DNA of 64,000 nucleotides from Ziziphus jujuba (taxonomy: Eukaryota > Streptophyta > Magnoliopsida > Rosales > Rhamnaceae), in assembly GCF_031755915.1 (NCBI RefSeq), contig NC_083387.1:18125001-18189000 (forward strand). Reading direction: 5' to 3'. The translations under genes were made by a program, and so were the position numbers. Positions 3,073-56,839 of the stretch are shown here, piece after piece (position 1 is the stretch's first letter; the number at the start of each line of letters is the position of its first letter). Below the pieces are notes generated by a model. The model was not told where the DNA came from and made no database searches. It saw nothing but the letters and a program-made list of their open reading frames with translations.

Positions 3073-3073
3073 A

Positions 3074-4614
3074 TTGAGCTTGGTTGCAGGGAGGGTTCTA
3101 ACTGTATATAAAGATGAATATCAAGTCCAAAGAGAGAACATCTTCCACATCCAATGTGAAGATCAAGGTAAAATTTATAGTATGATAATTGATAGTGGAA
3201 GTTATGCTAATGTAATTAGTAATGTGGTAGTTGAGAAATTAGGCTTAACAACCATTAAACATCCCAAATCATATAGATTACAATGGCTTAATGATAGTGG
3301 TGAGATGAAAGTAAACAAATAAGCCAAGGTAAAATTCAGCATTGATAAATATGTGGATGTTATTTGATATGATGTTGTTCCCATGCATGTTGGCCATATT
3401 TTATTAGGTAGGCCATGGAAATTAGATAAAGACGTCATACACTATGGTAGAAAGAATACCATTGTATTCCAATTTGAAGGTAAAAAGATTAAGCTTGAGC
3501 CATTAACTCCAAAGGAAGTATTTGGAGACCAATTACAAATGAACAAAGGAGGGAGGCTAAGCGGCTCAAGGAGAAGTCAAGCATGGCATCCATCGTTTCA
3601 CCATTTATCCAATGGGGCATGGCCGAAGATCCACATTAAGGTAAGTGTTCTAAACACGAGAATGAGGGAAATAAGAGAGATAAAGCCAAGAGGGAGAAAC
3701 AATTTGAAAAAGCTAAGAGCATGAGAGAGAAAAAAAAATCCGAAAGAGGAAAAGAAAAAGAAAAATTTTTATCTTAGCCTAGGTGAGGTTAAAAAGACAA
3801 TCTTGAGTGATAAATCATTGATGGTCATGATTTATAAAGATGTTTACCTAAATGATCAACCTAACCTTGAAGAGCTTGAATTGCCAAGTTCTATTTCTTC
3901 TCTTTCGTAAGAATTTAACGATGTCTTTCCAAAGGAGATTCCATGTGGTTTACCACCTAATTGAGGGATTGAACATCAAATTGATTTTATTCCTAGAGCT
4001 GAAATTCCTATAGGCCTGCATATAAAAGCAATCCCAAGGAAACAAAGAAGCTACAGAGCTAGGTAAGTGAATTGCTTGAAAAGGGTTATATTCGTGAAAG
4101 CATGAGTCCGTATGCTGTCCCTATTTTATTAGTACCTAAGAAAGATGGATCATGGCGTATGTGTGAAGATTGTAGAGCCATAAATAATATAACTATTAAA
4201 TATAGGCATCCAATTCATAGGTTAGATGATATGCTTGATGAATTACATGGTGCATGCATGTTTACTAAAATTGACCTTAGAAGCAGGTATCATCAAATTA
4301 GGATGAAAGAGGGTGATGAATGGAAAACCGCATTTAAAACTAAATATGGATTATATGAGTGGTTAGTAATGCTTTTTGGTTTAACTAATGTACCTAGCAC
4401 TTTCATGAGATTAATGAACCCTGTTATGCGTTCGTTCATTGGTAAATTTGTGGTTGCTTACTTTGATGATAATCTTGTATATAGTAGAGACTTAGATGAT
4501 CATGTAGGAATCTTAGGTTAGTTTTAGAAGTACTTAGGAAAGAAATATTATTTACTAATATTAAAAAATGTGATTTTTACTGAAATGAGCTTGTATTTTT
4601 AGGATTTGTTGTGA
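3074..4614 (+). pseudogene. Gy-1 protease and reverse transcriptase pseudogene
   Basis: A retropepsin-like core (MIIDSGSYANVIS, near 3181-3220) is followed by a broken linker. Reverse transcriptase is readable from about 4072: [26 protein letters not shown] and the catalytic YFDD at 4459-4470, with the catalytic aspartates kept. The frame is interrupted by stops before 4072 and by a frameshift near 4520. Homology ends near 4615 in a phrase that matches FLGFVV of Gy-A. From there the sequence jumps directly to the GDWVW region at the pol C-terminus. Confidence 0.88.
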
Positions 4615-17039: not shown

Positions 17040-18130
17040 GTGATTTATGTGTGAGAAAATAAACCTAACACATCCTAGAGTAGTCATCAATAAAGGTGAG
17101 AAAGTATCTACAACCACTCAAGGAAGATACACTCATAGGATTACACACATCCAAATGAATAAGTTCGAACTTCTCCTTGGCTCTCCATGCACCATTTTTA
17201 GGAAATGACAACCTAGTGGACTTTCCAAGTTGACAAACTTCACACATATTTTTAACATCATCAATCAAAGGCATATCATTCACCAAAGCATTTGTATTCT
17301 TCATTGCACCATAACTAGAGTGACCAAGGCTTTTATGCCAAAGTTGAGAAATGGACTCAATTTTGCTTCTTAAAGCTTGTTCACTATCTATTAAATTCAA
17401 CCTATAGCTTTTATCTTTTAAGGAAACTTTAAACACCTCATTTCCAAAAGCATTCGATATCAAACAACCATCACAACCAAAGTTCAAAACATATCCCTTT
17501 TCAACCAATTGTGCAACACTCAATAAGTTTTCACACAATGAAGGCACATATAGAACATTTTGGATAAGTTTGGTACCTTTATTGGTGTGCAATGAGATGT
17601 CTCCTTTTCCTTCTACATCCATGTAGCTTCCATTCCCAATCTTCACTCTTGTCATGTGGTGTGAACAACCAGTATCTACCAACCAACCAAAACCACTACT
17701 TGTAGCTTAAGGCATGTAGCCACAAATAAGGTCTCAGCCTCCTCATTCACAACATTTTCTTGTTGCCTTCCTGGCTTGCATAGTTTGCCAACATGTCATC
17801 TTTGCAAACATTTGTCACAAGTTGTATCCGGTTTCCAAAAGCACTTGTTTGGTGCATGTCCATGCTTCTTGCAATGGGGGCATAGTGGATAACCCCCATG
17901 GTTTTGTTGTTATCCTCCTTGTTGTTGCCTTGCATTGTTGTTATTGTTGTTGAAACCTCCATAACCGGTTACTCCTTTGTTCTTGTTCTTGTTCTTTTTG
18001 TTCTTCTTCTTGCTTTGACTAGACATAAAAGCACTTTCCAAAGACTCCTCCTTTCTTATGGCTCTTCTTTGTTTGGTTGCTTGGAGGGCATTGATAATCT
18101 CACTCAAAGTAATCTCACTAAGATTCCTTG
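17040..18130 (-). pseudogene. Copia-1 gag C-terminus, protease and integrase pseudogene
   Basis: 18130-17910 is the gag end (LSEIINALQATKQRRA and a lysine/asparagine-rich tail). 17962-17747 overlaps the zinc-knuckle region in another frame. 17682-17065 holds protease (MVDTGCSHHMT), the pre-integrase HHCC module (LWHKSLGHSSYGAM, CEVCQLGKSTRLSF) and the integrase core start (HLDVCNPMSVSSLSG, FIDDYSRMC). Integrase stops at about 17065 and most of its core and C-terminus are deleted. Confidence 0.88.
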
Positions 18131-21169: not shown

Positions 21170-24100
21170 TCATTCTATCGACGCCTTCGATGACTCCGCT
21201 GCCTTGAACTCCTCGATCTGGTGCTTGTAGGCTGCCAAGTTGCCTTCCTTCTCCCAGCTAGTTTCTTTTTCTCCTAGTCGCTTCCACTTGATGAGGTACT
21301 CTCGTACTGGCTGACGATGCACGCTTCTGGTTCTTTCTGCAAGGATCTCCTCCACTTCCTTGGTTGTCTTCGGCATCTTGGTCTTGACTTCAGCTTTTGC
21401 TGGAGTGTTGCGCGTAGGATCCTCCTGTCGGTGTAGTATGGCTTGAGGTTGCTGATGTGGAATACCGGGTGCACTCTCATCCATCCTGGGGTAACCACCT
21501 TATACGACGCCCTCCCTACTTTGGCAATGATCGGCATTGGTCCCTCATATTTTCTCATCAACCTGGGGTCTCTGTCCCTTAGCCAGCGAAATTGCTCTCA
21601 AGTTAGCTTAACCATCACCATATCCCCTGCATTGAACTCTAGGAGTCGCCGGTCCTTGTCTGCCCATTTCTTCATCTGATTTGCCGCCTTCTCCAAGTAG
21701 GCCCTGGCTATTTCCATGTTGTTCTTCCACTCTTTGGTGAAGTTGAAAGCCCTTGGGTTCTTTCCTTGGTACTCATCGACTGTGTGTGGAAGTAAGGGCT
21801 TCTGGCCGTTAACTATTTCGAATGGGCACTTACTTGTGGGAGATCCCTTCTGTGCATTGAAGCAGAATTGAGCTACATCAAGTAGTTGCACCCAATTCTT
21901 CTGGTTGGCACTAACAAAGTGTCGTAGGTACTCCTCCAACATGCCATTGAATCTTTCTGTCTGCCCATCCGTTTGCGGGTCATAACTGGAGAAAATGTTG
22001 AACTGGGACCCAAGAAGCTTGAATAGTTCTGTCTAGAAAGATCCCGTGAACTTTGCATCTTTATCGCTTACAATGTGTCGGGGCACACCCCAATATTTCA
22101 CCACATACTTGAAGAATAAGCGAGCAGTTTTCTCAGCTGTACAGTACTTTGAGGCAGGGATGAATGTTGCATATTTTGAAAAACGATCCATAATAACCAA
22201 AATACTTGAAAGATCCCCGATCTTTGGAAGGTTGGTGATGAAATCGATTGACACACTCTCCCATGGGCGTCACGGGACGAATAGAGGTTCTAACAGCCCT
22301 GGTGGTTTCTGCCTCTCAACTTTGTCCTGTTGGCACACAAGACAGGTTTGGATGTAGTCCATAATATCGTCACGCATCTGTGGCCAATAATATCCCTGTT
22401 TGATTAAGGCATACGTCCTTTACCACCCTGGATGTCCAGCCCACAAAGTGTCATGGCATTCTCTCATTAATATCTTTCTTAGGTCTCCAGCCTTCGGGAC
22501 AAATAACCTGTTTCCTTTTGTCCACAGTAAGTCATCTTCCTCCCAAAATTGACGAGTTTTTCCCTCCTTGCACAGTTTGAGGATATTCTGGGCACATTAA
22601 TCTCCCCCTAGATGCTGCCTTATCAGCTCTTGCATTGAATTCACAATAGTACTCGCAGCCATGTTAGCCACCACCCTTAGTGCCGTAAGCTCTATCTTGC
22701 GACTTAGGGCATCCACCGCCTGGTTCTTGGTCCCCGCTTTGTGCTCGAATTGAAGGTCAAACTCTGCAATGAATTCCTGCCAATGAGCTTGTTTTAGGGT
22801 TAGTTTTGGTTGTGTAAGGAAGTGACTAACGGCTGAGTTATCAGTCTTTACTACAAAGCTTGACCCCAATAAGTAGTGCCTCCAGATTCTCAAACAATGA
22901 ATTACGGCAAGCATCTCCTTTTCTTAAGCCGTATAGTTTCTTTCTGCCACTCATAACTTCCTGCTTTTGTCGACGACAGGATGACCATCTTGGAGTAGGA
23001 CTCCACCTAAAACGAAGTCAGATGCATCGGTTTGGACTTCGAAGGGTCTTGTGATGTCCGGCAGGGCCAACACTAGGTCTTTCATCATAGCTTCCTTTAG
23101 ATCCTGGAATGCACACTCACATTCCTTGCTCCACTCCCAAGGCACCTCCTTCTTTAGCAATTCCGTTAGAGGAGTTGCTTTCTTCGAGTATCCTTTTACG
23201 AAGCAACGGTAGTAATTTGCCAATCCCAGAAATGATCTAAGTTCTTTCACATTAGCAGGAGTTTTCCACTCTTGGATGGCTTTTACCTTCTCCATGTCCA
23301 TACGGATCTTCCCCTCCTTGATGATGTGTCCCAGAAACTTGATTCCCTTCTGCCAAAAGCACATTTTTCCTTCTTCACAAATAATTGATTTTCTTGGAGT
23401 TTCTGGAGTACCATTCGAATGTGTTTGACATGTTCTTACAAGGTAGGGCTAAAGATTACAATGTCGTCAAGATACACCACCACAAATTTGTCAAGGAAGT
23501 CTCGAAATACCTGGTTCATAAGGGTGCAAAATGTTGCTGGTGCATTCGTCAACCCAAAAGGCATCACCAGGAATTCGAAGGCTCCGTATCTTATGACGCA
23601 GGTGGTCTTCTCTTCGTCTCCTTCAGCGATTCTCACTTGGTAGTATCCCGATCTCAAATCCAATTTAGTGAAAAATTTGGCTCCGCTTAGCTGGTCGAAC
23701 AAGTCAGCTATTAAAGGGATCGGGTACTTGTTTCGCACCGTGACCTTGTTCAGTGCTCGATAATCTACGCACAGGCACAAAGTTCCATCTTTCTTCTTTT
23801 GGAATAATACTGGAGCGCCATAAGGTGCCTTCGAGGGTCTCAGGAACCCTGCTTCCAAAAGTTCCCTGAGTTGCTTCCGTAGCTCTACCAGCTTAGGAGG
23901 GGCCATCCGATAAGGTGCCTTTGCTGGAGGTTTTGCTCCTGGTATCAGTTCGATTTTATGGTCAATATCTCATCGAGGAGGTAGGTTCCTTGGTAAGTTG
24001 TCCGGCATCACATCATTGAATGTTTTTAAGGCATCCAGCACCATAGGAGGGGTAGTTTCATCATCTTCACCCTCCCTCGCTACCACCAATGCTATGTAAG

Positions 24101-25826
24101 AGGGTTCTTTGCGTCTTACTCCGTTCTTAAATTGGAGGGCCGATAGAAGTTTAGGGTTGTCCAGTTGCTTCCTCTGTACGGGAACTACTCCCGTTTATTC
24201 CCCCATCATCAATAGGCTGTTAGCGGCGGGAATAGGGATTGCCTTCTTCTTCACTAGGAAGTCCATTCCCAAGATTACATCAAAGTCATCCATTGGTACT
24301 ACAATCAAATCCACCCGGTCCTCCCAAGTTCCCAACTTGAGAGGCACTTGTTTTGCCAAGCCCACCGTAGGTAAGGCTTTGGAATTTACTGCTTTCATTT
24401 GCCCCGCATCCTTTTGTAAGTGTAGGCCCAATCTTCGAGCTTCAATCTCTGAACAAAAGTTGTGGGTGGCACCTGTGTTCACCATCACACTCTTTGCGGC
24501 CTTTCCATTTATCGCCGTATCCACGAACATAAAACCTTTCTCTTTGGTCTTCCTGGCCTGAATGACCTGCCCATTAAGGGCATTCAAGAATCTCAGCGCT
24601 CCCACTTGTGCGCCGTCTTCTCCTTCTTTTACTACCTCCTCTCGCCCTCCCTCATGCTCTTGGGAGCGAATAGATGCTTGTAGAGCACTAAGAGCGGTCT
24701 TATGGGGGCATTCGCCCACTCTGTGGGGACCATTACATAGGAAACATGTAAGAGGTCAGGGTCTAAATCCGAATGCATTGGGGTTCCGTGGTGGAGGCTC
24801 TCTCGTGTTCGGAGGTTTCCTATTGTCGCTTCCCCCAGGTCTTGGGAGATTGGCAGGCCTGAAGGGTCTACCGCTATTGGCATTCGAAGGAGACGATTGG
24901 GGCCTTCTATTGATGGGGCTCTCTGTTGAGTAGTCCATTAGGCACTCCCCTGCCCCTAGCGCTGAGCCTAGGTCTTGTACTCTCTGTCGTTGAAGTTCTG
25001 TCCTAGCCCAAGGTTTCAGCCCTTCCAGGAAGTGGAAGAGCTTATCCTTCTCAGACATGTCGCGTATATCGAGCATGAGTGCCGAGAAAGCTTTCACGTA
25101 GTCCCTTACATTACCGGTCTGTCTCAATTCTCTCAAATGTCACCGGGCAATGTAGTCGACATTCTTGGGAAGGGATTAGTTCTTGAGTTCCTTCTGTAGC
25201 TGGTCCCATGTGTCAATGATGCATCTGTTGTTCTTGATATCTTCGTATTTAGATCGCCACCATAGTTTTGCATCATTGGTTAGGTACATTGTAGCCATGG
25301 TCACCTTTGTTTCCTCCGAATCCGGTTTTATTGCTCAAAAATATTGTTCCATATCAAACAAAAAGTTTTCGAGCTCCTTCGCATCTCGTGCCCCTCCGTA
25401 CGCTCGGGGCTCAGGCACTTTCATTCGTCCATAGTCCCCGCCCATTGGGACAGCAGGTCGATTTTCTACCGCTTGCATGGTGATGGCGAGCTTGGTGTTT
25501 ATTTGCCCCATTTCAATTTTTAGGGCTTCCATGGTGGCTCGAAAGTCCTCCGTCAGTTCGTTGACCGTAGACATCAATCTCTCTATGGCCTCTTCCATTA
25601 CTCCATCTCGCTCGCCCGCAGTGGAGCTCGAAGGGTCGGTATTGCCCCATGTGGTTTGATTCCTCTCGAGTGCGCTCACTCGACTGGCTATGTCATCGAG
25701 TGTCTCCATCTTTTCGAAGGCCTCTTGCCAGTTGTGGCCTCTGATATGTGCATTTACAACTCCAGCAAGCTCCCCGAGCTGCTGGTCGATGTTATCGAAC
25801 CGCATTTCGTTTGTCAGCTTCGGCAT
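21170..25826 (-). pseudogene. Chromo-C gag-pol pseudogene with chromodomain
   Basis: Starts at 25826 (MPKLTNEMRFDNIDQQLGEL). Gag runs to about 24770, then a zinc knuckle CFLCNGPHRVGEC near 24740. Protease is MVNTGATHNF near 24480; the catalytic Asp is Asn, consistent with a G-to-A change. Reverse transcriptase spans 23906-22951 with [15 protein letters not shown] and [12 protein letters not shown]. RNase H is at 23060-22700 ([17 protein letters not shown]). Integrase is at 22480-21600 (HPGW...[42 protein letters not shown]). A frameshift near 21420 precedes a chromodomain (VEEILAER, REYLIKWKRL, TSWE), which in the family reads histone marks to target integration. Stops mostly sit where relatives have Arg, Gln or Trp. 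Confidence 0.95.
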
Positions 25827-28940: not shown

Positions 28941-30086
28941 AAATTTTGTTTAGGTTTGATCTATCTTTATTTGCTTTATTTGTTTTTGTGTTATTCTGCA
29001 ATTTTAGCATTAGGTTAAGGTTGCATCCATCCTATACACGTTCAGCATCTTAAAAATAAAAAAATAAAAAAAAAATTCATTCCTAGTTGAATTAGGATTT
29101 CCTAGTTTTATCGTATTTTTGTTTCCTAATTTGTTGGTTGTCTTTTATCATTGTTCTTGTTAATTTGGTTTTTGTTGATTTTTCTTTGCTGTTTTAGTCT
29201 TAGAAATTTGCATTCATATATTCAAAAAAAAAGAAGAAGTTTGCGGCATCATTTAAAAAAAAAAAAAAAAAAACTGCACATTTTGTTTATTTGGCGGTCA
29301 CGGGTTTGGTGTTTATTTTGGAGTTGGAATTGCAATTTTGGTAATTATTCTTGCTACTGCAGTTGTTTGTGTTCTGTGAGTGAAGAAAAAAAAAAAAAAA
29401 GAAAAAAAAAGAAAGTAGAAGTAAAGTCGAATAAAAAAAAAAAATTTCAGTTTGTTGGAGTTTGATTTGTTTGCTGGAAATTTGTTGGAGCTGCTGGTTT
29501 TTGATTATTTATTCAATATTTGAGTTGCTGGGAAATTATTCTTGCTATTGGATATTTGGATTTTTGGGTGTTTAAATTATTTGGATTAAAATTAGTTAAA
29601 GGAATTGATACAAAACTTGAATTACAAGAACAACAACCAACACTTTTCTATATTTTTGTTCTCTTTGATTCTTGATCGTATTTGAATTTCTTTTCCTGGA
29701 ATTTTATTCTTGAACTCATAATCTACTACCATCTCGTGCAGTTTTCAAAAATTCCAACGTTTCCCCATTATTTTGTGATTTCTTGTCTAGAAAGCCGAAA
29801 AATTAGGATTTGTTGGATTCTTTCGGTATTGCTTACTTTTTGCTACTGTCTTGTTGATAAGTTTAATTAAAACATACTAGTGATCTAATTGCTGTTTTGT
29901 GGGTGTTTTAATTAGAACTTTGAGATAATTCATTGAGTGGAAAAAGGCAAGAGTGTGTGAGATTAAAAGAGGGTAAAAGCCGAAACTAGTGTGCAAACAC
30001 GAGTGTCAAGACCTTGTTTGAGTGAAACACGTGAGGGAGTGAATATTGTGAGGATTTATTTTATTTTTTTGCAGTATTTTACTAAC
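28941..30086 (+). other. Gy-A untranslated leader
   Basis: About 1.15 kb before the likely gag start. Contains poly-A and GA-rich runs (29222, 29256, 29384-29440). Short frames here have no domain. The matching leaders in Gy-1 and Gy-B have the same runs. Confidence 0.85.
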
Positions 30087-33000
30087 ATGGCAGATTCTAG
30101 AATAAGAAGAGGGGATCCACCCTTGAGGATCAATGAGGAAGAGTCCGTAGCATTCCATGGCGATGACCGAGCTACCGGAAGTGGAGACCAAGTGGACTTG
30201 AGAACTATTTTGGAATCAATACAGCGGATGAGTGCTCAATTTAAGCATGTAAACCAAAGAGTGGGAAGATTAGAAGCCTCACAAGGAAGGCCGAATACAA
30301 GAAATAGGCAAGAATTCCATGGAGGACGAGGAGGTCGCGAGAGGCCGAGAGAGGAATTTGATGAGGAGCCATTGGACGGTGACTTTGAGGAAGGTATGGA
30401 CAAAACCTTTGCTGTCCAAGATAGAGCTGGCCGTGGGAGATATAGGAGGGAGGATACAGATGAAGATTTGGGAAATATCAAGGTTAATATCCCACCTTTT
30501 ATGGGTAAAAGTGATCCTGAAGCTTATTTGGAGTGGGAAGAGAAAATGGAGATGATTTTTGACTGCCACAACTATTCGGAAGGTAAGAAGGTGAAGATGG
30601 CAGCAATGGAGTTTGGCCATTATGCACTCCAATGGTGGATAAATGAGCAAAGCACCCGAAGGAGGGTTGGTGAAGACTTAATTACAACATGGCGACAAAT
30701 GAAAGGAGTCATGAGGAAGCGGTTTGTGCCATCCCATTACCAAAGGTTGCTGCATCAAAGGCTTCAATCTTTGTCTCAAGGAAGTAGGTCCGTGGAGGAT
30801 TATTACAAAGAGATGGAGATGTTAATGATGAGATTAAACATGAGGGAGGATAGAGAGGCAACAATGGCAAGATTCCTTGGAGGGTTAAACCGTGACATTG
30901 CCAACCAACTTGAATTACAACAATACTTGGAATTGGAGGAGATGTTGCATGTAGCCATTAAGCTTGAGAACCAATTCAAGAGGAGGGGTGTTAGTACACG
31001 GTTTGGAGGAGTTTCTAGCAGTGGAAGGACAAGTTCAAGTGGCTGGAAAAACAATTCCACTTATGAAAACAAGTTGAGGCCGAAATTAGGAGAAGAATCT
31101 ACCAACCGGCCAAGAAGGGAGGTCAAGACCGAATCTGTCCAAGCACTTAGAGGTGAGGTAAAATCTGATCCTAAACCTCAAAAATCCAGAGAAATAATTT
31201 GTTTTAAGTGCCAAGGAAGAGGTCACATAGCTAGCCAATGCCCAAATAGAAGAATCATGGTATTAAAGGGTGATGGTGAGCTGGAATCCGCAAGTGAAGA
31301 AAGTGGGGCTGAAACCGAGCAAGAGGAGGATCGCAATGAAGATGAATCCGAACCTGTGGATACATCTAATGTCGAGTTGAGCTTGGTTTCAAGGAGAGTA
31401 CTTGCTGTCTACAAAGATGAGGAGCAGATACAAAGAGAAAACATCTTCCACACTCGCTGCGAAATACAAGGTAAAATTTGTAGCATGATTATAGATAGTG
31501 GGAGTTGTACTAATGTGATAAGTAATCTTGTAGTTGATAAATTAGGCTTGAAAACAATTAAACATCCAGAACCTTATAGATTACAATGGCTTAATGATAG
31601 TGGTGAGATGAAAGTAAACAAACAAGCCAAAGTAAAATTTAATATAGGTAGATATGAGGATGTAGTTTTATGTGATATTGTGCCTATGATTGCCGGACAT
31701 ATACTATTAGGTAGACCATGGCAATTTGATAAAGATGCTACTCATTTTGGTCGAGAAAATAGTATTGTTTTCAGGTTTAAAGGGAAGAAGATCAAGCTGG
31801 AACCATTATCTCCTAAAGAGGTTTACAAAGATCAATTACAAATGCAACAAAGGAGAGAAGCCGAGAAGCTCAAAGAAAAAGCAAGTATGGCACCAATGGC
31901 CTCACCATCCATTCAAGAAGGTAAGGTTGAGGTTGCTGACCAAGGTAAGGTTTCTAAGGTTCATATTGAGTGGAAAGACCAAGGAAAAGCCGAGAGAGAG
32001 GTGAGGAAAGAGAACAAACCCGAGAGCATACAAAATCCGAAAATTTCCGCCAATGAGAGCCAAACCGAGGGAAGAAAAAGAAAAGAAAGAAAAGAGAGGA
32101 AAAACCAGAATTTTTATTTGAGTTTAGGGGATATTAACAAGGTTATTGAGTGTAAGAAACCTTTCCTGGTCATGCTTTACAAAGAAAATTATTTAAATGA
32201 TCAAACTAACTTTGAAGAACTTGAATTGCCAAGTTCAATGATTTCTCTTTTGAAGGAATTTGGAGATGTCTTCCCAAATGAGATTCCAAGTGGTTTACCA
32301 CCTATTCGAGGGATAGAACATCAAATTGACTTTGTTCCAGAGGCTGCCATACCAAATAGACCAGCTTATAGGAGCAATCCCGAAGAAACAAAGGAGCTGC
32401 AAAAACAGGTAAGTGATTTGCTTGATAAAGGATATATTCGTGAGAGTTTAAGTCCATGTGCTGTTCCTGTTTTGTTGGTACCTAAAAAGGATGGTTCTTG
32501 GAGAATGTGTGTTGATTGTAGGGCTATAAATAATATTACCATCAAATATAGACATCCCATTCCTAGACTAGATGATATGCTTGATGAATTGCATGGTGCT
32601 TGCATGTTTACAAAAATTGATCTTAGGAGTGGTTATCACCAAATTAGGATGAAAGAAGGTGATGAATGGAAAACCGCATTCAAAACTAAATATGGGCTGT
32701 ATGAATGGTTAGTTATGCCTTTTGGATTATCTAATGCACCTAGTACTTTCATGAGGCTTATGAATCATGTAATGCGTCCATTTATTGGTAAATTTGTGGT
32801 TGTCTATTTTGATGACATTTTAATATATAGCCGAAATTTGGATGACCATGTGGATCAACTTAGGCAAGTTTTGCAAGTTCTTAGAAAGGAAAGATTATTT
32901 GCTAACATTAAAAAATGTGACTTTTGCAAAGAAGAACTTGTATTTCTAGGTTTTGTAGTAAGTGCTGCAGGAATCAAAGTTGACCAAGCTAAAGTGAAGG

Positions 33001-35174
33001 CAATCCAAGAGTGGCCGGTTCCTACATCCATTACCCAAGTGAGGAGCTTTCATGGCTTGGCAAGCTTTTACCGAAGATTTGTCAAGGATTTTAGTACCAT
33101 AGCAGCACCATTGAATGAAGTTGTCAAGAAGAATGTTGGCTTCAAATGGGGGGAAGTACAAGAAAAATCTTTTAATTTGTTGAAAGAAAAATTGTGTAAT
33201 GCACCTTTGTTAGTTTTGCCAAATTTTTCTAAGACTTTTGAAATTGAGTGTGATGCTTCGGGTGTAGGTATTGGAGCTGTTTTAATGCAAGAAGGAAGGC
33301 CCATAGCCTACTTTAGTGAAAAATTGAATGGAGCTGCCCTAAACTACCCGACTTATGACAAGGAGATGTATGCTTTGGTGAGGGCTTTGGAGACGTGGCA
33401 GCATTATCTCATGCCAAAGGAGTTTGTGATTCATACGGATCATGAGTCTTTGAAGCATATCAAGGGTCAAGGAAAGATCAACCGAAGGCATGCTAAGTGG
33501 ATTGAATTTATTGAAACATTTCCATATGTGATCCGCTACAAAAAAGGTAAGGAAAATGTGGTTGCCGATGCATTATCCCGAAGGTATGTGCTCTTTTCTA
33601 CCTTAGATGCTAGATTGCTTGGATTTGAACAATTAAAAGAACTTTATGAGCATGATAGTGACTTTGGAGAAATTTTTAGAACCTGTTTGAAACATGGATT
33701 TAATAAATTTTACATATTTGAGGGATATTTGTTTAAGGAAAACAAACTTTGTGTGCCTAATTGTAGTATTAGGGAATTATTGGTTCGGGAAGGACATGGG
33801 GGTGGTTTAATGGGTCATTTTGGTATTTTAAAGACTTTATCCTTGCTGCAAGAACATTTTTATTGGCCTAACATGAGGAGAGATGTTGAGAGAATTTGTG
33901 AAAGATGTGTGAAGTGCCGAAAAACAAAATCAACATTGAAACCGCATGGATTGTATAAGCCTTTGCCGATTCCTACCTATCCTTGGATAGATTTGTCTAT
34001 GGATTTTATTCTTGGGTTGCCTAGGTCAAGGACAGGTAAGGATTCAATATTTGTTGTAGTAGATAGGTTTTCTAAGATGGCACATTTTATTGCATGTAAT
34101 AAAACTGATGATGCATCCAACATTGCTAATTTATTTTTCAAGGAAATTGTGAGATTACATGGTATGCCAAAAACTATTGTGTCGGATAGGGATGCTAAGT
34201 TCTTAAGCTATTTTTGGAAAACATTGTGGGCTAAATTAGGTACTAAGCTTTTATTTTCAACTACTTGTCATCCACAAACTGATGGACAAACCGAAGTAGT
34301 AAATAGAACCTTGTCTGTATTGTTGAGAGCATTAATTAGTAGAAATTTAAGGACTTGGGAAGAATGTTTGCCACATGTTGAATTTGCATATAATAGGTCT
34401 TTACATTCAGCAACTAAATTTACTCCATTTGAAATTGTTTATGGTTTTAATCCTTTGACTCCATTAGATTTAACACCTTTGCCTTTAAGTGAGCGTGCTA
34501 ATCTAGATGGAAAACAAAAAGCTGATTTTGTAAAGCAGATTCATGAGAAGACTCGAGCAAACATTGAGAGAAGGACTGAGCAATATGCAAGGGTGGCTAA
34601 TCAAGGCCGAAAATCAATGGTGTTTGAACCTGGAGATTGGGTATGGCTGCACTTAAGGAAAGAAAGATTTCCCGAACAAAGGAAATCAAAACTCATGCCG
34701 AGGGGTGATGGACCTTTTCAAGTTTTGGAGAGGATAAACGACAATGCCTACAAACTTGATCTACCGGGTGAGTATAATGTTAGTGCCTCCTTTAATGTTG
34801 CTGATTTATCTCCTTTTGCTGCAGGTGATGACTTCGATTTGAGGACAAATCCTTTTCAAGAGGAGGGGAATGATGCGAATCCACCCGAGACTGCTCGACC
34901 AACAACCCGCTGGGGTGCTGACCCAATACAAATGAAGGTGGGACCGATCACTAGGGCCCAAGCCAAGAGGTTCAAGGACAATCTTGCTGTCTTCATACAA
35001 GGAATAAGTCATAGCCAAGAGGGGTTGGCCACATCTAAAGAACCAAGGCCTGTTTTACTCATACAAGCAATAGAAGCCAAAACAGGGTCGGGTGACGTTT
35101 TTGGTGCTAATAAGGAGGCCGGGTTGTATGAATTGGAACCCCATCTTTATGGGTTCAATTCATATGGAGGATGA
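29991..35174 (+). CDS. Gy-A gag-pol polyprotein (1727 codons, intact)
   Basis: A single frame encodes all functions needed for retrotransposition. The ATG at 30087 ([10 protein letters not shown], residue 33) is the more likely start because it is the one kept in Gy-1 and Gy-B. Gag core is near residues 160-330. Zinc knuckle [14 protein letters not shown] is at 404-417. Retropepsin MIIDSGS has its catalytic Asp at 502. Reverse transcriptase has [15 protein letters not shown] and YFDD at 939-942. RNase [17 protein letters not shown] has Asp 1088. Integrase has an HHCC module from 1269 (CERCVKC) and a core with Asp 1338, Asp 1399 and Glu 1435, exactly DD35E spacing. The C-terminus ([14 protein letters not shown], then [12 protein letters not shown]) runs about 100 residues into the 3' LTR. 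No classic chromodomain was recognised. No stop or frameshift, so it may be active or very recently active. Confidence 0.96.
34858..34870 (+). other. Gy-A polypurine tract
   Basis: AAGAGGAGGGGAA directly before the 3' LTR; it lies inside the coding frame (residues Gln-Glu-Glu-Gly-Asn). Confidence 0.93.
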
Positions 35175-42953: not shown

Positions 42954-44037
42954 TCAAGGCATCAGCAAGTTGATCTTTGCTAGAAATATGGTAGACACGA
43001 AGCTCACCAGCAGAGACTCTCTCTTGAAAAAATGAAAATCCACTTGAATGTGTTTCATTTTGGAGTGAAGAATAGGATTAGCACAAATATATGCGGTGCT
43101 TACATTATCACAGTAAATAACAGGAACTTGAGGAAGAGGTAGTTGTAACTCAAACAACAAAACATGAAGCCAACATAACTCGGACGTGGCAGTAGCCACT
43201 GAGCAATATTCGACCTTAGTGGAAGAGCGAGAAACCGTTCTCTGCTTTTTGGACATCCAAGAAATTGGATTGGAACCAAGGTACATAACATAGGCCGAAG
43301 TTGAGGTGATATCATCTTTATTACTAGCCCAATCAGCATCACAGTAAGCATGAAGAGAGAAAGAGGAATGTCGGCGAAGAAAGAGACCAAAAGAACTCGT
43401 ACCTTTGAGATATCGAAGAAGCCATTTGACAGCTGCCCATTGAAGTTCCGTAGGCTTGTGCATAAAATGAGATAGTTTGTTTACAGCAAAAGAGGTGTCT
43501 AGATGTGTCAAAGAGAGGTACTAAAGACTGCCAATGATTTTTCGATATTGAGCGGCATCAATGAGGTTAGTTCCGTCCATGAGAGTGAGAGAGACCGATG
43601 TAGAATGGGTGTAGTGACCTCCTTAACATCAAGCATATGAGTTCTTTCCAACTAATCATGTATATATTTTCGTTGAGTAAGAATAAGTCCATGCTTATTT
43701 TAAGCAACTTCAATGCCAAGGAAAAAATTAAGATCACCAAGATCTTTAAGAGAGAAGGCACGGGAAAGCGCATTGACAAAGAGAAAAAGTGAGGAAGAAT
43801 GTTCCCAATCAACAACAAGTCATCCACATAAACCAACAAGTAAAGAGTAACACCAGATTGATGAAAAATAAATAACGATGTATCAGAAAAAGAGTTGACA
43901 AACCTGTACGAGAGAAGAAATCTCTTCAATTTAGTGTACCAAACACAAGGTGCCTGTTTCAACCCGTAGAGTGCTTTCTTTAGTTTGCAAACATGGTCTG
44001 GCTGAGAAGAGTCAATAAATCCTTGAGGATATTGCAT
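42954..44037 (-). pseudogene. Copia-2 reverse transcriptase and RNase H pseudogene
   Basis: 44037-43567 carries the reverse transcriptase C-terminal half (CKLKKALYGLKQAPCVWY and the catalytic YVDD in LLVYVDDLLLIGN). 43511-42954 carries the connection and RNase H (YLKGTSSFGLFL, AYCDADWASNKDD, STKVEYCSVATATSE, IYCDNVSTAYI). The usual glutamate-alanine pair in the STKVEY motif is altered. A frameshift lies between 43567 and 43511. The N-terminal half of reverse transcriptase (44040-44390) is present but full of stops. Confidence 0.92.
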
Positions 44038-44390
44038 GTAAACATCTTTATGAAGATGTCCATGAAGAAATACATTATTGATGTCAAGCTAACACAACGG
44101 CCAGTTCCTAGCCAAAGCAATGGATAACATAATTCGGATTATGGCCAGCTTAATGACTAGACTGAAAGTCTCTGAATAATCAAGCCCCGGCTATTGATTA
44201 TATCCTTTTGCAACTAAACATTATTTGTATCGATTTATGGTTCCATCAGAGTTTCTCTTTATTCTGAACACCCATTTATTACTCACCAAATTATAATTGG
44301 AGTGAGGAGGAACTAGTTCCATGTCCCATTTTGAACTAAAGCACTGAACTCCTCGGACATAGCAGTGTGCCAATGTTTAGTTTAGAGGGC

Positions 44391-46190
44391 TTAAGAGACA
44401 TTGCAAGGTTCAAGACTGGTCAACTGAGACTGAGAAGTTGCTAGGAAAAAATCAGGCAATTTCTTTGGCTTGAAGATATTATTTTGAGACTGAGTGCGCA
44501 TTGAATGCGTACGACCAATTGGATAACTTATGTTTGTCTGTGGGTCCATAGGTAGAGAGGAGGTTTCAAGAGAAGAAATAGCTTGTGAGAGAGTTGTCAC
44601 ATCTTGTGGAGTGGATAATGGAGGCACTGAATGAGTAGTAGGTGATGAAGAAGTGGAAGAAACAAGAGAATGTGACGTAAAGGAGTGGGTAACATTTAAT
44701 GGTAGATGAGAAGAAAAAGTCCTAGTTGAACTAGATGACAAAGAAATAGGTGGAGAAATAGTAGGTATCCTAGTGGAACTAGATGACAAAGAAGTAGGTG
44801 GAGAGATAATAGACAGTGATATATGTTGTGGGAAAAGAACTTTTGTGTATGGTTCACACGTGGACAGAGAATAGAGATTCCAAGTAGGTGAAATCACATG
44901 AGTCCTATGGGTATTGAACGGGTGAGAGGAGTAAGGAAAAATGGACTCAATAACAGTAACATGCCATGAGATATAAATTTTATCTAAAGAAAAATCATAA
45001 CATTTGTAGGCACTCTGATTTTGTTGATATCCAAGAAACAGACATGGTTTGGATGTAGCTTCCAATTTATGTTTTGTGTATGGTTTAAGCCAGGGATAAC
45101 AGAGACAGCCAAACACTTTAATGGTAAGCCATAGGATCAGAATTTTAATGGGGATTTAAAATGAAGAGTAGAAGAAGATAATCTATTAATTAAATAGACT
45201 GCTGTTTGGAAACCATAGGACCAGAATTTTAATGTAAGCCTACATGTGATAATAAGGCTAAGCTAGTTTTCCTAATATGTCTATGATGTCGTTCTGCATA
45301 ACCATTATGCTCTGATGCATGGGGTGGTGATAGAAAATAAGTGATACCAGTTGTTTCAAAAAGATTTTAGTTTTAAAAATTCATCTCCGTTATCCAAGTA
45401 AAAAGAAATGATTCTGGTGTTAAAAAATTTTTTGACATTTATTTTAAATTTAAGAAAAACTAACAACACTTCAGACTTTTGGTTTAAAGGATAAAACCAG
45501 ATATATTTAGTGAAATGGTCAACAAAAAATACATAATATTTATAGCCAACAATGGAGGTAATTACATAAGAATATAACAATTGTAAAGGTTTAGAAGAAG
45601 TCATAGAGGAAATATTAAAAGGAAGTTTGTAAGCTTTATTACATTTGCAAGGATTACAAATAAAACTTTTAGATGAGGAAACAGGTAAAGAAAAAGATGA
45701 AATTAAATGGCGTAGGACTTTATTGGATGGATGACCTAAGCGAAGATGCCAATCCTTGTAGGAAGTTTTGACAGCAAAACAAGAAACTAAGGGTGGAGTG
45801 ATGCGGGAATTATTTGACTGAAATGGCCACTCATAGATGCCTCCTTTATTTGGTCTGCAAAGCAATGTCACTCCCATTGGTATGTCCTTCACAAGAAAAC
45901 CAGTGGGTGAGAATTCAATGGTAGTATTATTATTATTACAGAATTGAGAGACTGATACAAAATTCTTGGTCATTTGTGGGACACATAAAACATTGGATAA
46001 ATGAAAGGATCTATTGTGAGCAGGAAGATGAGTGGAACCAATATTTGTAATTTGTAAACCATTACCATTGCCAACCATAATTTCGTCAATTCCATCATAG
46101 TTAGAATGAGCAGACGGATTATGAAGATCATTTGTGACATGGTGAGAAGCACCTAAATCAAGAAGTCAAGTTGTATGAGAGGAAGGAACA
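44391..46190 (-). pseudogene. Copia-2 protease and integrase pseudogene
   Basis: Minus strand: protease trace LDLGASHHVTND near 46165 (the usual DSGAS is DLGAS). Then 46078-45356 with the GAG-pre-integrase module (WHLRLGHPSNKVL, CNPCKCNKAYKLPF) and integrase core (YVFFVDHFTKYIWFYP, YLDNGDEF). Then 45116-44391 with the integrase C-terminus (FGCLCYPWLKPYTKHKLEA, CLFLGY) and a Ser/Thr/Pro-rich linker. A broken segment lies at 45117-45355. Confidence 0.9.
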
Positions 46191-50045: not shown

Positions 50046-53000
50046 ATGAAAATGGCTTCTCTCTTTGCCCAGTTGCTCTGTATCTTGATGATAACAATGG
50101 CTTCCATTGCTATTATAGAGGCTAAAAGAATTGGAATAGAAATTGGAAGCAGAGAAGTAGCAGAGTTCAGAGAGTTCGATTACTTCGTCTTGGCGCTGCA
50201 ATGGCCTGGAACATTCTGTCACCGCACCGACCATTGTTGTTCCTCCAACGCCTGCTGCCGACGGTTTCTCAATTTCTTACCCTTTTCTCTAAACCCTTTT
50301 TATGTTTAATTTTTTTTTATAATTATTCTATTTATTTAATTTTAATTGGAAGATGATTTTTGTGGTTTTATTTGTGACTAGTTTGGTTAATCGGACTGAT
50401 TTTTGCCCTTGAGTGGTTCTTCTAAGTGATTTTTAATCAGTTGGTTTATATGTAAACTGTGTGGGTGGATAGGATCATATAGAATGTGACAGAGGGAAAC
50501 CTTACAACGATCCTCTCTCTTCCGTTGTAGATTTATTATAGATGGTGCATATTTGCATATTTTTGTGATGCTCTTCGATTGGTAATTGATGCTGAAACCC
50601 AAATTCAGTCCGAGCAGGTGCACTAAGCTTAGACATCTTTAACTACTTTCGCTTTGACATCTTCAATCTTCTTTTCCCTGAAATTTGCTTTGTGAAGTAT
50701 TTATTTCCTGACATTGCTGAATTTTATAATTGCCATTTTTGTCATTTGTTCAGCTCTAACTACCATCCAGCTTAATTGACTTATTGTGTCTATGTATGTA
50801 TGCAGCTTTTTACAGCAATTTTTGGGGCGATAAACTGTTAAATTTTTGTAGTTTTGTTGACAATATACTTTTACAATGGCAAACTTGATAATGGGAACTT
50901 GACATTTTATCAATCTGAATTTTCTTTTTCAGCTCAAATGCTCCAACTGAGTTTACAATCCGTAAGTATAAGGTTGCCTAACTGTTATTATAACTGGTCT
51001 TTATATGTATGGCTACATTATTAAAACCTCTTCTACTACAAAGCATCATTGGTAATCCATTATTTAATTTTCTTTCAGAAGGAATTCCTTGAATATGGCA
51101 TCGTTGTGATAATGAAATTGCACTTTCATATTTTAAGAAACACTGACCTTCTAAGCACTAGAAGAAGCACATAAAAGTTGATTATTTATAATGTTTCCTG
51201 ATTTTGACTTCATTGGGAAAAAGATTTTCAAACTTTTTTATTGAGTCTGAAACTCAAATGGGCCTATACAACCTTTTGTTTATTTCTTATGATGGACCTG
51301 ATGATTGTAGACTTGTAGCATGTTATACAAATCTCCTATGAGGCTGGGAGGGTGCCAAGAAAAATATGCTGATGTATTTTCTGTACTTGAATGGTAGATG
51401 GGTTGTGGCCTGACTACAACGATGGAACCTGGCCTGCCTGCTGCACCCATGAAAGCTTTGATGAAAAAGAGGTGTGTTTAGTAATTCATACTTGGTAATT
51501 TTCTGGGACTGCAGTATCTAAGAAATTGTTTAGCAATTAAGAATCATTACCATGATGTAAAATAGGTGAATTAGGCATACTTACTGGGAGTAGAAAATCT
51601 CACTTCTTCACTCATGTCATGTATTGACCTGCAGTATCACTTACTGCACCTTGGAGCATTAGTGTTAATATGATCAACTATAAATTTTCCACAGTGGTTC
51701 ATTTTTTGCAATACAAATAGTTATGGTGAATTCTTTGTTTGGTCGTTGCAATTACATTTCAGAGCATAATTTTTGGATGTATGCTCTAGCGGTGGTAACT
51801 GTCTCATCTTGTATACTATACTAGTTTTGGTTTCATTTTGTAGATCTCAACGTTACTTGATGCTCTAGAGAAGTATTGGCCATCTCTAAGTTGTGGTAAA
51901 CCATCAACCTGCCATGGCGGGAAAGGATCATTTTGGGCTCATGAGGTGCTAATCAAATTTGGACTTTGTTTGTATTGGAGTTTTTAATGACCACTGTACA
52001 GATTTCAAAACTAACAATTTTTCATGTTTATGTTTCTTTGATGGCCGAAATGGATAATATACGTTTGCAGTGGGGTAATATTCTTCATCTTTTTCTCAAG
52101 TGTTTCTGTTGTCCAGACTTCTTGACCTTGTGTAAGATAAAAAGTTGCTACATCTCTATAAAGGATATGGGACTTTTGTCTTCACTAAATGAAAGCCTGG
52201 CAGCTTTTGAAATTTGATGCATTTGACTCACGATTCTTGTAAATTCATATTTTAAATCCACATCACTGAAGCTTTTCTCTTTGTTGATGTTTTTCCTTTT
52301 GTTGGTCCACTTAGGTCCCTTTTTGTTTGTGGTAAAGTTTTGAGGGAATTATTTCATGGGAATTAGTTTCTAGGAATCACTTTTTCTTTCTAGTGTTAGT
52401 GGGAAAAAAAATGTAGGATTTAAATGCAGTTAAAAGGTTAAATGTATTAAAAATAAGGTAAGATGTCATCAAAAATATATGTAAAACTAATTTCTATGGG
52501 AATGTTAGGATAAAAAATTAATTTCTCTTGGAATGTGAGAAGGACACTGATTCTAGAGAACTAGATTCATCCCAACTCGCCCAAATATTGAGAATCAAAT
52601 TCCTTTTGGGTGCAATTTTGACTACAAAAAATTACCCAAATACATGGAAACTTCACTTTCCCTTGGAATCTCATATTTGCACGAACTTTGATATGAACCA
52701 AACAAGACCTTAGAGATACGAAATGAAATTGCAGGGTAGTTAGAGGAATTACTACTATAGTGATGTATGCATATATTATGTTTGAAGCATATATAATTTT
52801 TGTTAGATGATTCATTTTTTATTTTTTTTTTAATCACATGTTGCTTTATAATTTTTTTTTTATTTTTTATTTTTTGTTATTTTTTGTCATGTTTAATAGA
52901 CAAGTTGCATAAGAACTTTTGATGGCTTCTTGTTCTTTCTCTTTCTTTCAATAAGATAAGAATAAATTGTCATAATCTGATGAGGTGAAATTGCTCTATT

Positions 53001-56000
53001 GCGGTTGGTCTGTCATTGGCATGCACATCACATATATGTCTTTCATTTCTAGTTAAATTTTTGTTCCTTGGTTCATTTTTGCATTGTTACTTTCAGAGAA
53101 GCACGGGACTTGTTCCTCTCCTGTTGTTCATGATGAATACAGTTACTTCTTAACGACCCTCAATGTCTATTTCAAACACAATGTCACTGTAAGTTTTCAA
53201 GAAAGTGAACTTAAAATCAACCAAAACCTTTTTAAGTTTCAGGATAGCTATTTGCTTATTATAGACGTAACAATCCAATAGTATTCTATCATTTATCATT
53301 TTCATATTATGCAATTTTGCTGCATCAAGGTGTAGAAACTTCTTGATTGCATTTGCATATCATCCATTGATGGAAGCTTTGCCCTTAAAGATTTATTAAT
53401 GTTGGTTGCTTATATTATCAAATACTAGTGTGTTTGGTTATTTGTATATGAATAATGAGATTAAATCAATTTAGATATTTGGAACATTCTATGGGGTTTA
53501 TATAATATGAATATATTTCAGTTTTATAGTTTACACGGAATAGCTTCAAACCATACTGGCAGGATAGTAATAACAGCTCTTGCATATAATCAAACTATAA
53601 AACTATGTATCAGTTAACGAAATCAATTGTTTTATCACTTATGTAAATTTACATTCTATGAACATTATTGTGTGTAAATTAGTTAAATTTTTTGGATTTG
53701 TTCAGTGTATAAATTATTTAACATTTATATAAGTTGTTTACTTATACTTATTTTCCCAATACTATGCCAGAGTGTCTTGAAAGAAGCAGGATATGTACCT
53801 TCTAATAAAGAAAAATACCCACTTGGAGGCATTATTTCTGCCGTTCAAAATGCTTTTGGAGCAACCCCGTTGTTGATTTGCAAAAATGGTGCAGTGGAAG
53901 AACTTCGCCTGTGCTTTTACAAGGATTTTAAGGTTAGATTCCTGCCTAGTATTCACTTTAGATTCAATGTGAATTAAGGGTTGGTATCAGTCGCTTCTTT
54001 TAGATTGTGAAGTCAAACCTTATGGTAGATTGTGAAGTCAAAACTGTAGAAATGATTGCTAAAATATTTTGTCTCATCTGTTCTTCCCTGCTGAGGACTA
54101 TTATATATTTACTCCATAGCATCCATGGCCTGGAGTCTCATTAATAGAATTATTCTCTCATTATATTATTCAATTTATTCTCCTCTTTTAGAATTGCATA
54201 CCAGGCATAAGTTTGATGATGAAAATATATTGAGATAGGCATTTTAAGAGAAACCCCATTCTGTCAAGTGATTAATATTTGGGATGATTAGATAGAGTTT
54301 TAAGAGAAATCTCTTGGTACAGTTTGATGGTCAAGTAATATGTTTTTGTTTCTCATGCATGAGGAAGACTCCTATTTGTTCTGAGTGTTTGATTTTATTG
54401 CAGCCACGTGATTGTGTTATTGGATCTACTGGTCAAAGTTTTGTGCTATCTTCAAGAAGCTCATGTCCTCATTATGTCAGCTTACCAATACCAGAATATG
54501 CATCATTTGGTAACTTCCTAATGCTATGATTGATTATGGATAAAATAAAATGGCGACATCATAATTTGTCAAATATTTGATTGTATGCATATGTTTTCTA
54601 TCCATAAATTGTGGTGTAATTGCCTTGCAAGGGATGTGTCCAATTGTTTGTTTGAGCTTGTCAGTTCTTGTTCTTATCTATCAATTTTCTCCATGTAAAA
54701 TTGGTTGCATGTCTTTGATTTAATTTGATGTAATTAGTCATAAAATGCTGAACCTGTTTAACTTAATTTATGATAAATAATTTTATTTAGAAGATGATAT
54801 TAATAATCAATCAGAGACTCCAGAACTGGAAATAGTGATGTTGTCCTAGCTGTATGAATCATATCTATCTTGATATATGCAACTCCATCTAGGCATGATT
54901 CTTAAATCCAAAAGATGTTTCCTTGGCTTTGAGCTTCTGAGCTTTTGTGGTAGTGTAAATTTAATCCTTAAGTTTTCAACTGTAGCAATTAACTCCCAAA
55001 ACATTTTTGTTTTTGCATGTCCTCGGAAACTTAGAGTAGGTGAAAATTCTCCCAATTTATGTCCTACCATACGATCTGTTATATAAATTGGCAAATGCTC
55101 CTTTCCATTATGGATAGCAATAGTATGTCCGATCATTGTCGGTATAATGGTAGACGCTCAGGACTTGAGAAATGTATTGAATCGATTCTTTTTAATGAAT
55201 AGATCCGATTGCAACTTCGAATATGGAATTCAAAGGGATGAAATAGGAAATGGTACTCTGAATCATAGAACTATAATGAAATATACAATCAACCAACATT
55301 TATCAAATTTGAAAAAGAGTCGGAAGAAATGGTTTGATCCTCTTATTTTTATTTCTCGAACCAATTAGACCTTTTGAATAACAATGAAGAAGACCTTATG
55401 AAAATGAAACATTTTCGCATAGAAGATATGAAACATATATTGGACATTCTAGAAATAGAAAAGTATTTTGCATAAATTTTAAGGGATTATTTCTTTTTTT
55501 TTTCCCCCCAAAAAGAAAAGATAAAAATGAGTTTTGAATCTTTAGCACATTCCAAATACTCGGAATAGATCCAAAAATTGTACTTATTCTTTCTATCCAT
55601 ATGGGGGCTTCCTTCAATGTTCCACTAAAATTATTTCAGTAAATAGCAGAATCATAGATAGGGAACTATACTAGCAACTTAATTTTATTGTAGAAGTTTT
55701 CGGGATCAATGATTGGACCATGCAAACTAGAAATACCTTTTCTTGGATTAAGGAAGAGATTACTCTGTATTTATTAGTTTACTACAGTCATAACAATAGC
55801 TTTTACTTCTCTCTTGTAAATATTATTGAAGCACAAAGATCAAGAACAAAATGTAATGGTAACTGTTTTATTTATTTTTGGGTTTAGACAAAGACTTTGT
55901 TAGTAAGAAGTATAATATTAATGTCTTTTTGCACTTGGGTTTAAAGGAAAACTTCAGTAGTAAGACAGCATAAATGTCTGGCCTTTTAGATAGACCCATT

Positions 56001-56839
56001 TAACAGTATGTGGATGGTGAGTGCATATTTGTAAGGTACTAGTTAGTTTGAACATATATAAGAGGTCAATGGACACTAATCGAAAAATTTAGGGGCCCCA
56101 ATGCTGCAATTCGAAGTTTTAAAGGTGAAACTGGCATTCCTCTAATATGCAAGAGACTGATATGTTTCCCTTAATTTGAAATCTCTGTTTATCTACTTAT
56201 CATGGTCTTGGTTAGCCTTTACAACTATTTCTATCCTGTTCTTGCAACTGCTGAGGTTACATGGGCACCACTTTCCAGTCGATTACTGCTGGGTGTTATA
56301 GCATCTCTGTCACAATAAGTGGTTTTTCTTCTTGGTTGACTCAGTGGGGAGTGTCTCTATATCATCTGGAAATTAAAGTATGCAATTAAACATGATCTTC
56401 TACTTCAGAATGAATGATATGATCAATATGTATCTACATGAGAATTACAATTTAGTCTCTCTCAAATAAATAATGTTGACTTATTAGATCAAAAAAATGT
56501 TATTGTTTCAAAACTTCTCACACTATCTTACCGGCTGTTGGTATGTGCAAATATAAGGTTGTGTAATCATTATGTGACTGTTTGGCCTTTGATTGAGTAA
56601 GCATTTGCTTACCTTTTTTTTATTTTTTCATTTTCATTTTTTATTTATTTTTACTTTGGTTTATTTTCTTTATTATTCTTGAATAGATGGCCGTAATATT
56701 ATATGTTATAAGATTTTATTATTGTTTGTTTGGCAATGAATACTTTCTTTAGCCTACTAATCATCTTTTAGCTATCGAACCAGGGGTTGAAAGTGCTGAA
56801 ACTACCATTTCATCTGTGCTCGGCGATGAAGCTCTTTGA
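50046..56839 (+). CDS. RNS2: RNase T2 family S-like ribonuclease (RNS2 type), nine exons
   Basis: Exons by my reading: 50046-50263, 50933-50961, 51398-51471, 51844-51945, 52071-52074, 53097-53188, 53771-53932, 54404-54509, 56784-56839. All introns are GT-AG, phases match, total 843 nt, 280 residues. RNase T2 enzymes cleave RNA through a 2',3'-cyclic phosphate; RNS2 relatives act in vacuole and ER on ribosomal RNA. Residues 1-26 look like a signal peptide ([21 protein letters not shown]). The substrate-site motif [12 protein letters not shown], active-site motif 1 FTIHGLWPDY (His 83) and motif 2 FWAHEWEKHGTC (Glu 141, His 145) are intact, as are cysteines such as CCSSNACC and [15 protein letters not shown] is a possible glycosylation site. 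The C-terminus extends past the enzyme core, as in vacuolar RNS2. The exon 1 donor (CG|GTTTCT) is weak but is the only one that keeps the frame. Confidence 0.95.
52071..52074 (+). other. Four-nucleotide micro-exon of the RNS2-like gene
   Basis: TTTGCAG|TGGG|GTAATA. Exon 4 ends in phase 0 (GCT CAT GAG) and exon 6 begins AGAAGCACGGG. Joining them directly breaks the frame and loses a residue. Inserting TGGG restores Trp 142 and the first base of Glu 143 in the motif HEWEKHG. Flanking intron lengths are 125 and 1022 bases. Confidence 0.88.
52311..52712. mobile_element. Tourist-like MITE candidate in intron 5
   Basis: A 396-base block (52314-52709) runs from GGTCCCTTTTTGTTTG to CCAAACAAGACC, imperfect inverted ends, flanked by TTA on both sides (52311-52313, 52710-52712). 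TTA duplications and GGTC...TGTTTGG ends are typical of PIF/Harbinger-derived MITEs. The ends pair only with gaps, and TTA is easy to find by chance. Confidence 0.55.
55011..55157 (-). pseudogene. rps19: Plastid rps19 fragment in intron 8
   Basis: Minus-strand translation reads [20 protein letters not shown] and continues through [19 protein letters not shown], the C-terminal half of plastid ribosomal protein S19. It stops short of the normal C-terminus. Being inside a nuclear intron and joined to another plastid gene, it is a nuclear plastid insertion and has no coding role. Confidence 0.9.
55150..55368 (+). pseudogene. ycf2: Plastid ycf2 fragment in intron 8
   Basis: Plus-strand frame from about 55150: [20 protein letters not shown], later [16 protein letters not shown] and [13 protein letters not shown], an internal piece of the very large plastid Ycf2 protein. 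The join to rps19 falls at about 55150-55157 with a short shared stretch. The two genes are on opposite strands here and are not adjacent in typical plastid genomes. Confidence 0.9.
55369..55719. other. Probable further plastid-derived sequence
   Basis: A minus-strand frame at 55617-55396 ([20 protein letters not shown]) is unusually clean for an intron and may be organellar, but I do not recognise it. The part just before 55720 could be the spacer upstream of petA. Confidence 0.4.
55720..55766 (+). pseudogene. petA: Plastid petA 5' end in intron 8
   Basis: ATG at 55720 followed by a frame [15 protein letters not shown], the start of the cytochrome f precursor, then homology ends. Only about 16 codons, so the call depends on recognising the leader peptide. 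Third identified piece of the plastid mosaic. Confidence 0.75.

Follow-up and report, generated by a model that had tools for sequence, protein, structure and literature searches.

Structure and identity of the jujube RNS2 gene

The window, a 64-kb stretch of NC_083387.1, contains an RNS2-type class II RNase T2 gene of Ziziphus jujuba, which spans 6.8 kb of the + strand and was read by hand and with a script as nine coding exons. In particular, exon 1 (50046..50263, 218 nt) carries the start codon and the N-terminal region and ends in phase 2, exon 2 (50933..50961, 29 nt) runs into the segment CAS I (FTIHGLWPD), and exon 3 (51398..51471, 74 nt) carries CAS I. Exon 4 (51844..51945, 102 nt) begins and ends in phase 0, its last residues being ...SFWAHE, and is followed by intron 4 (51946..52070), a GT-AG intron of 125 nt that is the shortest of the eight; the others measure 372-2,274 nt. 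Exon 5 (52071..52074) is the micro-exon TGGG, which supplies Trp142 of HEWEKHG together with the opening base of the Glu143 codon. After intron 5 (52075..53096, 1,022 nt, GT-AG), exon 6 (53097..53188, 92 nt) starts in phase 1 with AG-AAG-CAC, the (E)KH of CAS II. The gene continues with exon 7 (53771..53932, 162 nt), exon 8 (54404..54509, 106 nt), which ends in phase 1, and, beyond a 2,274-nt intron, exon 9 (56784..56839), whose 56 nt include the stop codon.

The nine joined exons encode a protein of 280 amino acids that is identical at 280/280 positions to the public jujube protein P0001 found by protein search, and whose name there, "ribonuclease 2 isoform X2", suggests that another isoform exists. 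Among the best 120 protein-search matches, 49 are named ribonuclease 2 or 2-like by our own count, the rest being otherwise named or nameless. Both CAS I and CAS II (HEWEKHG), with their catalytic His, are present in the translated model. The product of exons 1-8 (262 aa) matches the RNase T2 family profile PF00445 through residues 44-231 and over its complete length (positions 1-188), scoring 174.1 bits where 26 is the threshold; without the TGGG exon, the match covers profile positions 1-91 alone and falls to 81.2 bits.

Further, all six parameters of the nine-exon product (280 aa, 31.08 kDa, pI 5.68, GRAVY -0.060, instability 50.33 and aliphatic index 77.00) equal the values tabulated for ZjRNase2 in PMC9940439, and the gene in the window is ZjRNase2. 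That paper reports its expression in fruit transcriptomes and the cloning of its coding sequence, and assigns it to class I in the abstract and conclusions and to class II in the discussion. Because the gene in the window has eight introns, ZjRNase2 is a class II gene by structure. The accessible text of PMC9940439 gives it 'more than 2 introns' and makes no mention of a micro-exon.

The eight-intron structure has been described for the class as a whole. According to Ramanauskas and Igic (2017; PMC5598434), class II T2/S RNase genes have eight introns in 46/46 sequences, the land-plant intron positions 5, 8 and 10 are in phase 0, and phase +2 is given for an algal intron that may be homologous to position 3. 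The jujube introns that match positions 5, 8 and 10 are likewise in phase 0 and its intron 1 is in phase 2; with nine exons, the stated phases and both CAS segments, the jujube gene shows no difference from the class as it is described in the accessible text. One Eucommia RNase T2 gene is reported with ten exons and nine introns (PMC7994793), a count that would not fit this pattern in a class II gene. Class II genes were found in every seed-plant genome examined and in Marchantia, and were not detected in Selaginella or Physcomitrella (PMC5598434); unlike that account, PMC9250077 dates the origin of the class to the angiosperms.

The four-nucleotide exon and its junction in relatives

The preliminary description of this DNA had recognised in TGGG a 4-nt exon belonging to an RNase T2 gene, and that observation is confirmed. 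Between exon 4, whose end is in phase 0, and exon 6, which starts in phase 1, TGGG gives ...WAHE-W-EKHGTC..., and its inclusion makes the nine-exon translation identical to P0001. It is flanked by the acceptor ...tttgcAG (AG at 52069-52070) and the donor GTaata (from 52075); as an internal, coding, GT-AG flanked exon of no more than 15 nt, it falls within the definition of a plant coding micro-exon. The pattern AG-TGG[ACG]-GT occurs once in the 1,151-nt interval between exons 4 and 6, and in 5,000 dinucleotide shuffles of that interval it arose in 2.26%, the exact AG-TGGG-GT in 0.92% and the longer YAG-TGG[ACG]-GTRA in 0.16%; the longer pattern has a single + strand occurrence across the whole 64-kb window. 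Fourteen open AG-exon-GT candidates of up to 51 nt would restore the frame, of which TGGG alone supplies a Trp, and the other 13 were rejected as lacking it. Nor, as far as genomic sequence shows, is TGGG supplied by a shifted exon boundary, one of the two refuting conditions named in the preliminary description: HEWEKHG is restored neither by lengthening exon 4 or 6 in a way that keeps the frame (within ~400 nt) nor by shortening either exon, the open extensions being one of exon 4 (+34 nt) and none of exon 6.

Three protein searches, each represented by its best 120 matches (of 496, 567 and 391 above threshold), gave 172 distinct proteins including P0001, which comprise 36 short-contig proteins (sources lgn, jgi and ena) and 136 named proteins. 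The longest contig of the former is 0.9-1.9 kb in 34/36 cases and 2.6 and 4.1 kb in the other two, with open reading frames of 257-317 aa. Because a reading frame of that length fits a contig of 0.9-1.9 kb, compared with 6.8 kb for the jujube gene, we infer that the short-contig proteins represent transcripts.

Within this best-match sample, the exact motif HEWEKHGTC is present in 32/36 short-contig and 89/136 named proteins (p = 0.007 for all 172, and p = 0.0015 for the 120 proteins of the first search, with 19/19 against 67/101, neither value being strict for sequences that are related by descent). The looser motif HEWxKHG occurs in 34/36 short-contig proteins versus 91/136 named ones, the latter comprising, when grouped by name, 18/26 monocot, 5/6 magnoliid and 68/104 other sequences; the named relatives in the sample are all angiosperms, and traces of the micro-exon extend through eudicots, magnoliids and monocots. 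Trp stands at the micro-exon site in 35/36 short-contig proteins.

Insertions or deletions within ~4 residues of the micro-exon affect 32/135 named proteins (P0001 left out) versus 0/36 short-contig proteins. The indel rate at the micro-exon by itself was discarded as evidence, as it is not unique to this site: indels occur at junction 8|9 in 25/135 named versus 2/36 short-contig proteins, near residues 237-241 in up to 61/135 named proteins, and at junction 1|2, variable in both sets, in 29/135 named and 16/36 short-contig proteins. The telling contrast at the micro-exon junction is that between the named and the short-contig sets.

These counts bear on two alternatives to a genuine exon. The first is that there is no such exon, that the models lacking the Trp (HEKHG, HEVEKHG and others) are true and that TGGG is a chance match. 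The exact motif is indeed absent from 51/172 proteins (4/36 short-contig and 47/136 named). However, the junction-indel forms are confined to the named set, differ from one another and in several cases resemble intron read-through; among the four short-contig exceptions the Trp persists in three (HEWGKHG twice and HEWGRHG) and is replaced by Tyr in the fourth, P0139; the pattern arises by chance at a rate of 0.16-2.3%; and the public jujube model contains TGGG. This alternative is extremely improbable, and a chance match is ruled out by the shuffle counts, the exact identity with P0001 and the relatives. The second alternative holds that P0001 lacks support, being a prediction fitted only to keep the frame open, and that the true jujube message differs. 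P0001 does look like an automatic record, but the same junction appears without an indel in 36/36 short-contig proteins, and ZjRNase2 is reported as expressed in fruit and as a cloned coding sequence, the cloning template being unstated in the accessible text (PMC9940439); this alternative is scarcely credible.

The exon had also been said to encode the active-site tryptophan. It does encode the Trp of CAS II, which is a conserved active-site segment; calling it an active-site residue in the catalytic sense overstates the case, as the residues marked catalytic in PMC2720953, where the CAS segments are described, are His in the accessible text, and relatives have Tyr at this site. In particular, Tyr replaces Trp in trichomaglin, in P0139 and in the Dioscorea protein P0146, and because of these substitutions the catalytic role of the CAS II Trp would appear softer than had been stated.

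Broken gene models and intron flanks

The broken named models differ in form: some have lost part of exon 4, some read HEKHG as if exon 6 began at an AG 2 nt inside it, and some appear to read through an intron. The records with indels at CAS II include P0019, P0056, P0084, P0092, P0101, P0135 and P0148. Five broken models fit the flanks of TGGG read as protein (P0019, P0148, P0135, P0056 and P0084). For example, read-through past the micro-exon donor in jujube would give WGNILHLF, and W-G-N or W-G-K (HEWGN or HEWGK) is found in Prunus dulcis (P0019), Ananas (P0148) and Ensete (P0135), a comparison made on proteins alone, in which W-G-N/K is also encodable by other codons. Read-in from the acceptor side fits Castanea (chestnut, P0056) and Prosopis (P0084, CTHWQW).

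The chestnut stretch agrees with the last 57 nt of jujube intron 4 (52014-52070) at 38/57 bases with the most favourable codons, where resampling gave a mean of 25.4 and 0/5,000 resamples reached 38; the match was spotted by eye before testing, and its single register is fixed by the junction. The downstream flank of Prunus matches jujube more weakly, at 33/45 bases (p = 0.015), and the flank matches to jujube of Prosopis (p = 0.12), Ensete (p = 0.35) and Ananas (p = 0.47) are not significant. At least in chestnut, to judge from these alignments, the same small exon most likely occupies the equivalent position, and gene finders often miss it; the 57 nt that close intron 4 may be a conserved splicing aid beside the micro-exon.

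Misannotation of plant micro-exons has been reported to be pervasive (PMC8831610). In the present sample, roughly one named protein in four carries an indel exactly at the catalytic motif, in ways consistent with a 4-nt exon having been overlooked. Records with such indels could pass for catalytically dead paralogs, and surveys of RNase T2 proteins that call inactivity or class from CAS II can be misled by a missed micro-exon.

Splicing of the micro-exon

Coding micro-exons of 1-15 nt are known from land plants, where 45 clusters have been described (Yu et al. 2022, PMC8831610; MEPDB, PMC12409088); they are coding, as TGGG is, keep their position and are often missed in annotation, and one rice case of 4 nt was confirmed by RT-PCR (PMC8831610). 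The words ribonuclease, RNase and RNS2 are absent from the main texts of these two papers as accessible, supplements aside, and no paper naming a 4-nt exon in an RNase T2 gene was among the matches listed in the open-access literature, again with supplements aside. The TGGG exon is not a discovery in itself, because the jujube protein model in public records already contains it and the intron count published for class II genes implies it. By our own mapping, the introns flanking the micro-exon would correspond to class II positions 6 and 7. The accessible text of PMC5598434 counts introns and does not mention two that are 4 nt apart; the two were presumably scored there as separate positions, a delicate reading given that introns whose starts lay within seven nucleotides were merged.

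Very probably, TGGG is a true coding micro-exon in this class II RNase T2 gene of jujube, an old part of its eight-intron structure that is normally always included. Constitutive inclusion suits the data because indels at the junction are found in 0/36 short-contig proteins and the eight introns are invariant in 46 class II sequences. The splice sites around TGGG are weak: its acceptor has a pyrimidine content of 0.43, the lowest of the eight introns (others 0.57-0.76), and of the 8 donor consensus bases intron 4 matches 4 and intron 5 matches 5, the other six introns having 4 matches once and 6 five times. This weakness is unlike what is expected of a strongly constitutive exon and speaks against our best reading of TGGG, that of an ordinary, ancient and constitutively spliced plant micro-exon.

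Under constitutive splicing, intron 4, whose 125 nt are of intron-definition size, would probably be excised whole, which would join TGGG to exon 4 and present an ordinary 106-nt exon to the step that follows. Alternatively, intron 5 may leave first and TGGG be fused to exon 6; either fusion would spare the recognition of a lone 4-nt exon. With so pyrimidine-poor an acceptor, other aid may be needed, perhaps from the conserved upstream flank in intron 4. Failure of splicing would yield a frame-shifted, early-stop message whose degradation is expected.

Skipping of TGGG had been said to shift the frame inside the catalytic motif. It does so if the other junctions are unchanged: the product reads ...WAHERSTG..., loses the Lys and His of CAS II and terminates at a stop codon at 53151, which lies 303 nt upstream of the final exon junction. 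It need not do so, as skipping combined with use of the AG 2 nt inside exon 6 gives the in-frame ...WAHEKHGTC.... A message with a stop 303 nt before the last exon junction is expected to decay. The frame-shifted product has 159 aa, 17.85 kDa and pI 5.83, values that rule out its being ZjRNase4 (158 aa, 18.61 kDa and pI 7.81 as reported).

The preliminary description went on to propose that skipping could act as an on/off control, a proposal that is unsupported here. With a regulated switch, inclusion would vary with tissue or stress, and skipping, by way of frame shift, stop and decay, would leave less active enzyme. The early stop at 53151 and the expected decay are what such a switch would use, a stop likewise results when intron 4 or intron 5 is retained, the acceptor is weak by a crude score, and plant micro-exons as a group are reported to have more detained flanking introns (PMC8831610). 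Against this stand the lack of any skipped isoform among the proteins examined; the 0/36 junction indels among short-contig proteins, itself a weak point as truncated skip products rank low in such searches; the in-frame alternative at the AG inside exon 6; and the report that some class II members are constitutive or housekeeping (PMC9250077). A further counterexample is the 4-bp micro-exon of human MPC1, which has the same length, would shift the frame if skipped and is reported as constitutively included owing to a strong exon-defining region in its flanking introns, as tested with minigenes (PMC9929638); MPC1 is an unrelated gene in an unrelated organism. A regulated switch is quite unlikely, although the protein data lean only mildly against it. 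A skipped message would result from error and be no sign of a switch, and splicing of TGGG is 'decisive' in the trivial sense that applies to any frame-shifting exon. Were its inclusion ever shown to vary, this gene would offer a clear-cut case in which to study how splicing controls a plant RNase of the housekeeping type.

A different form of control would be a kinetic gate, in which the micro-exon, together with the conserved flank upstream of it, makes up a slowly spliced 'exon island'. RNS2 pre-mRNA that still carries intron 4 or 5 would then be detained in the nucleus until wounding, senescence or phosphate shortage led to completion and release. Such an arrangement would allow quick enzyme production without new transcription; we regard it as quite improbable.

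In intron 5, a possible Tourist-like MITE was seen by eye at 52311-52712 (TTA-GGTC ... GACC-TTA), a terminal pair that does not appear among the results of the inverted-repeat search. Elsewhere in the window, 29991-35174 is a single reading frame of 1,727 aa, which by its motifs looks like an uninterrupted Ty3/gypsy-type retrotransposon polyprotein, and apparent fragments of copia- or gypsy-type retrotransposon proteins were seen by eye at 1986-4521, 17065-17682, 22951-25826 and 42954-46078.
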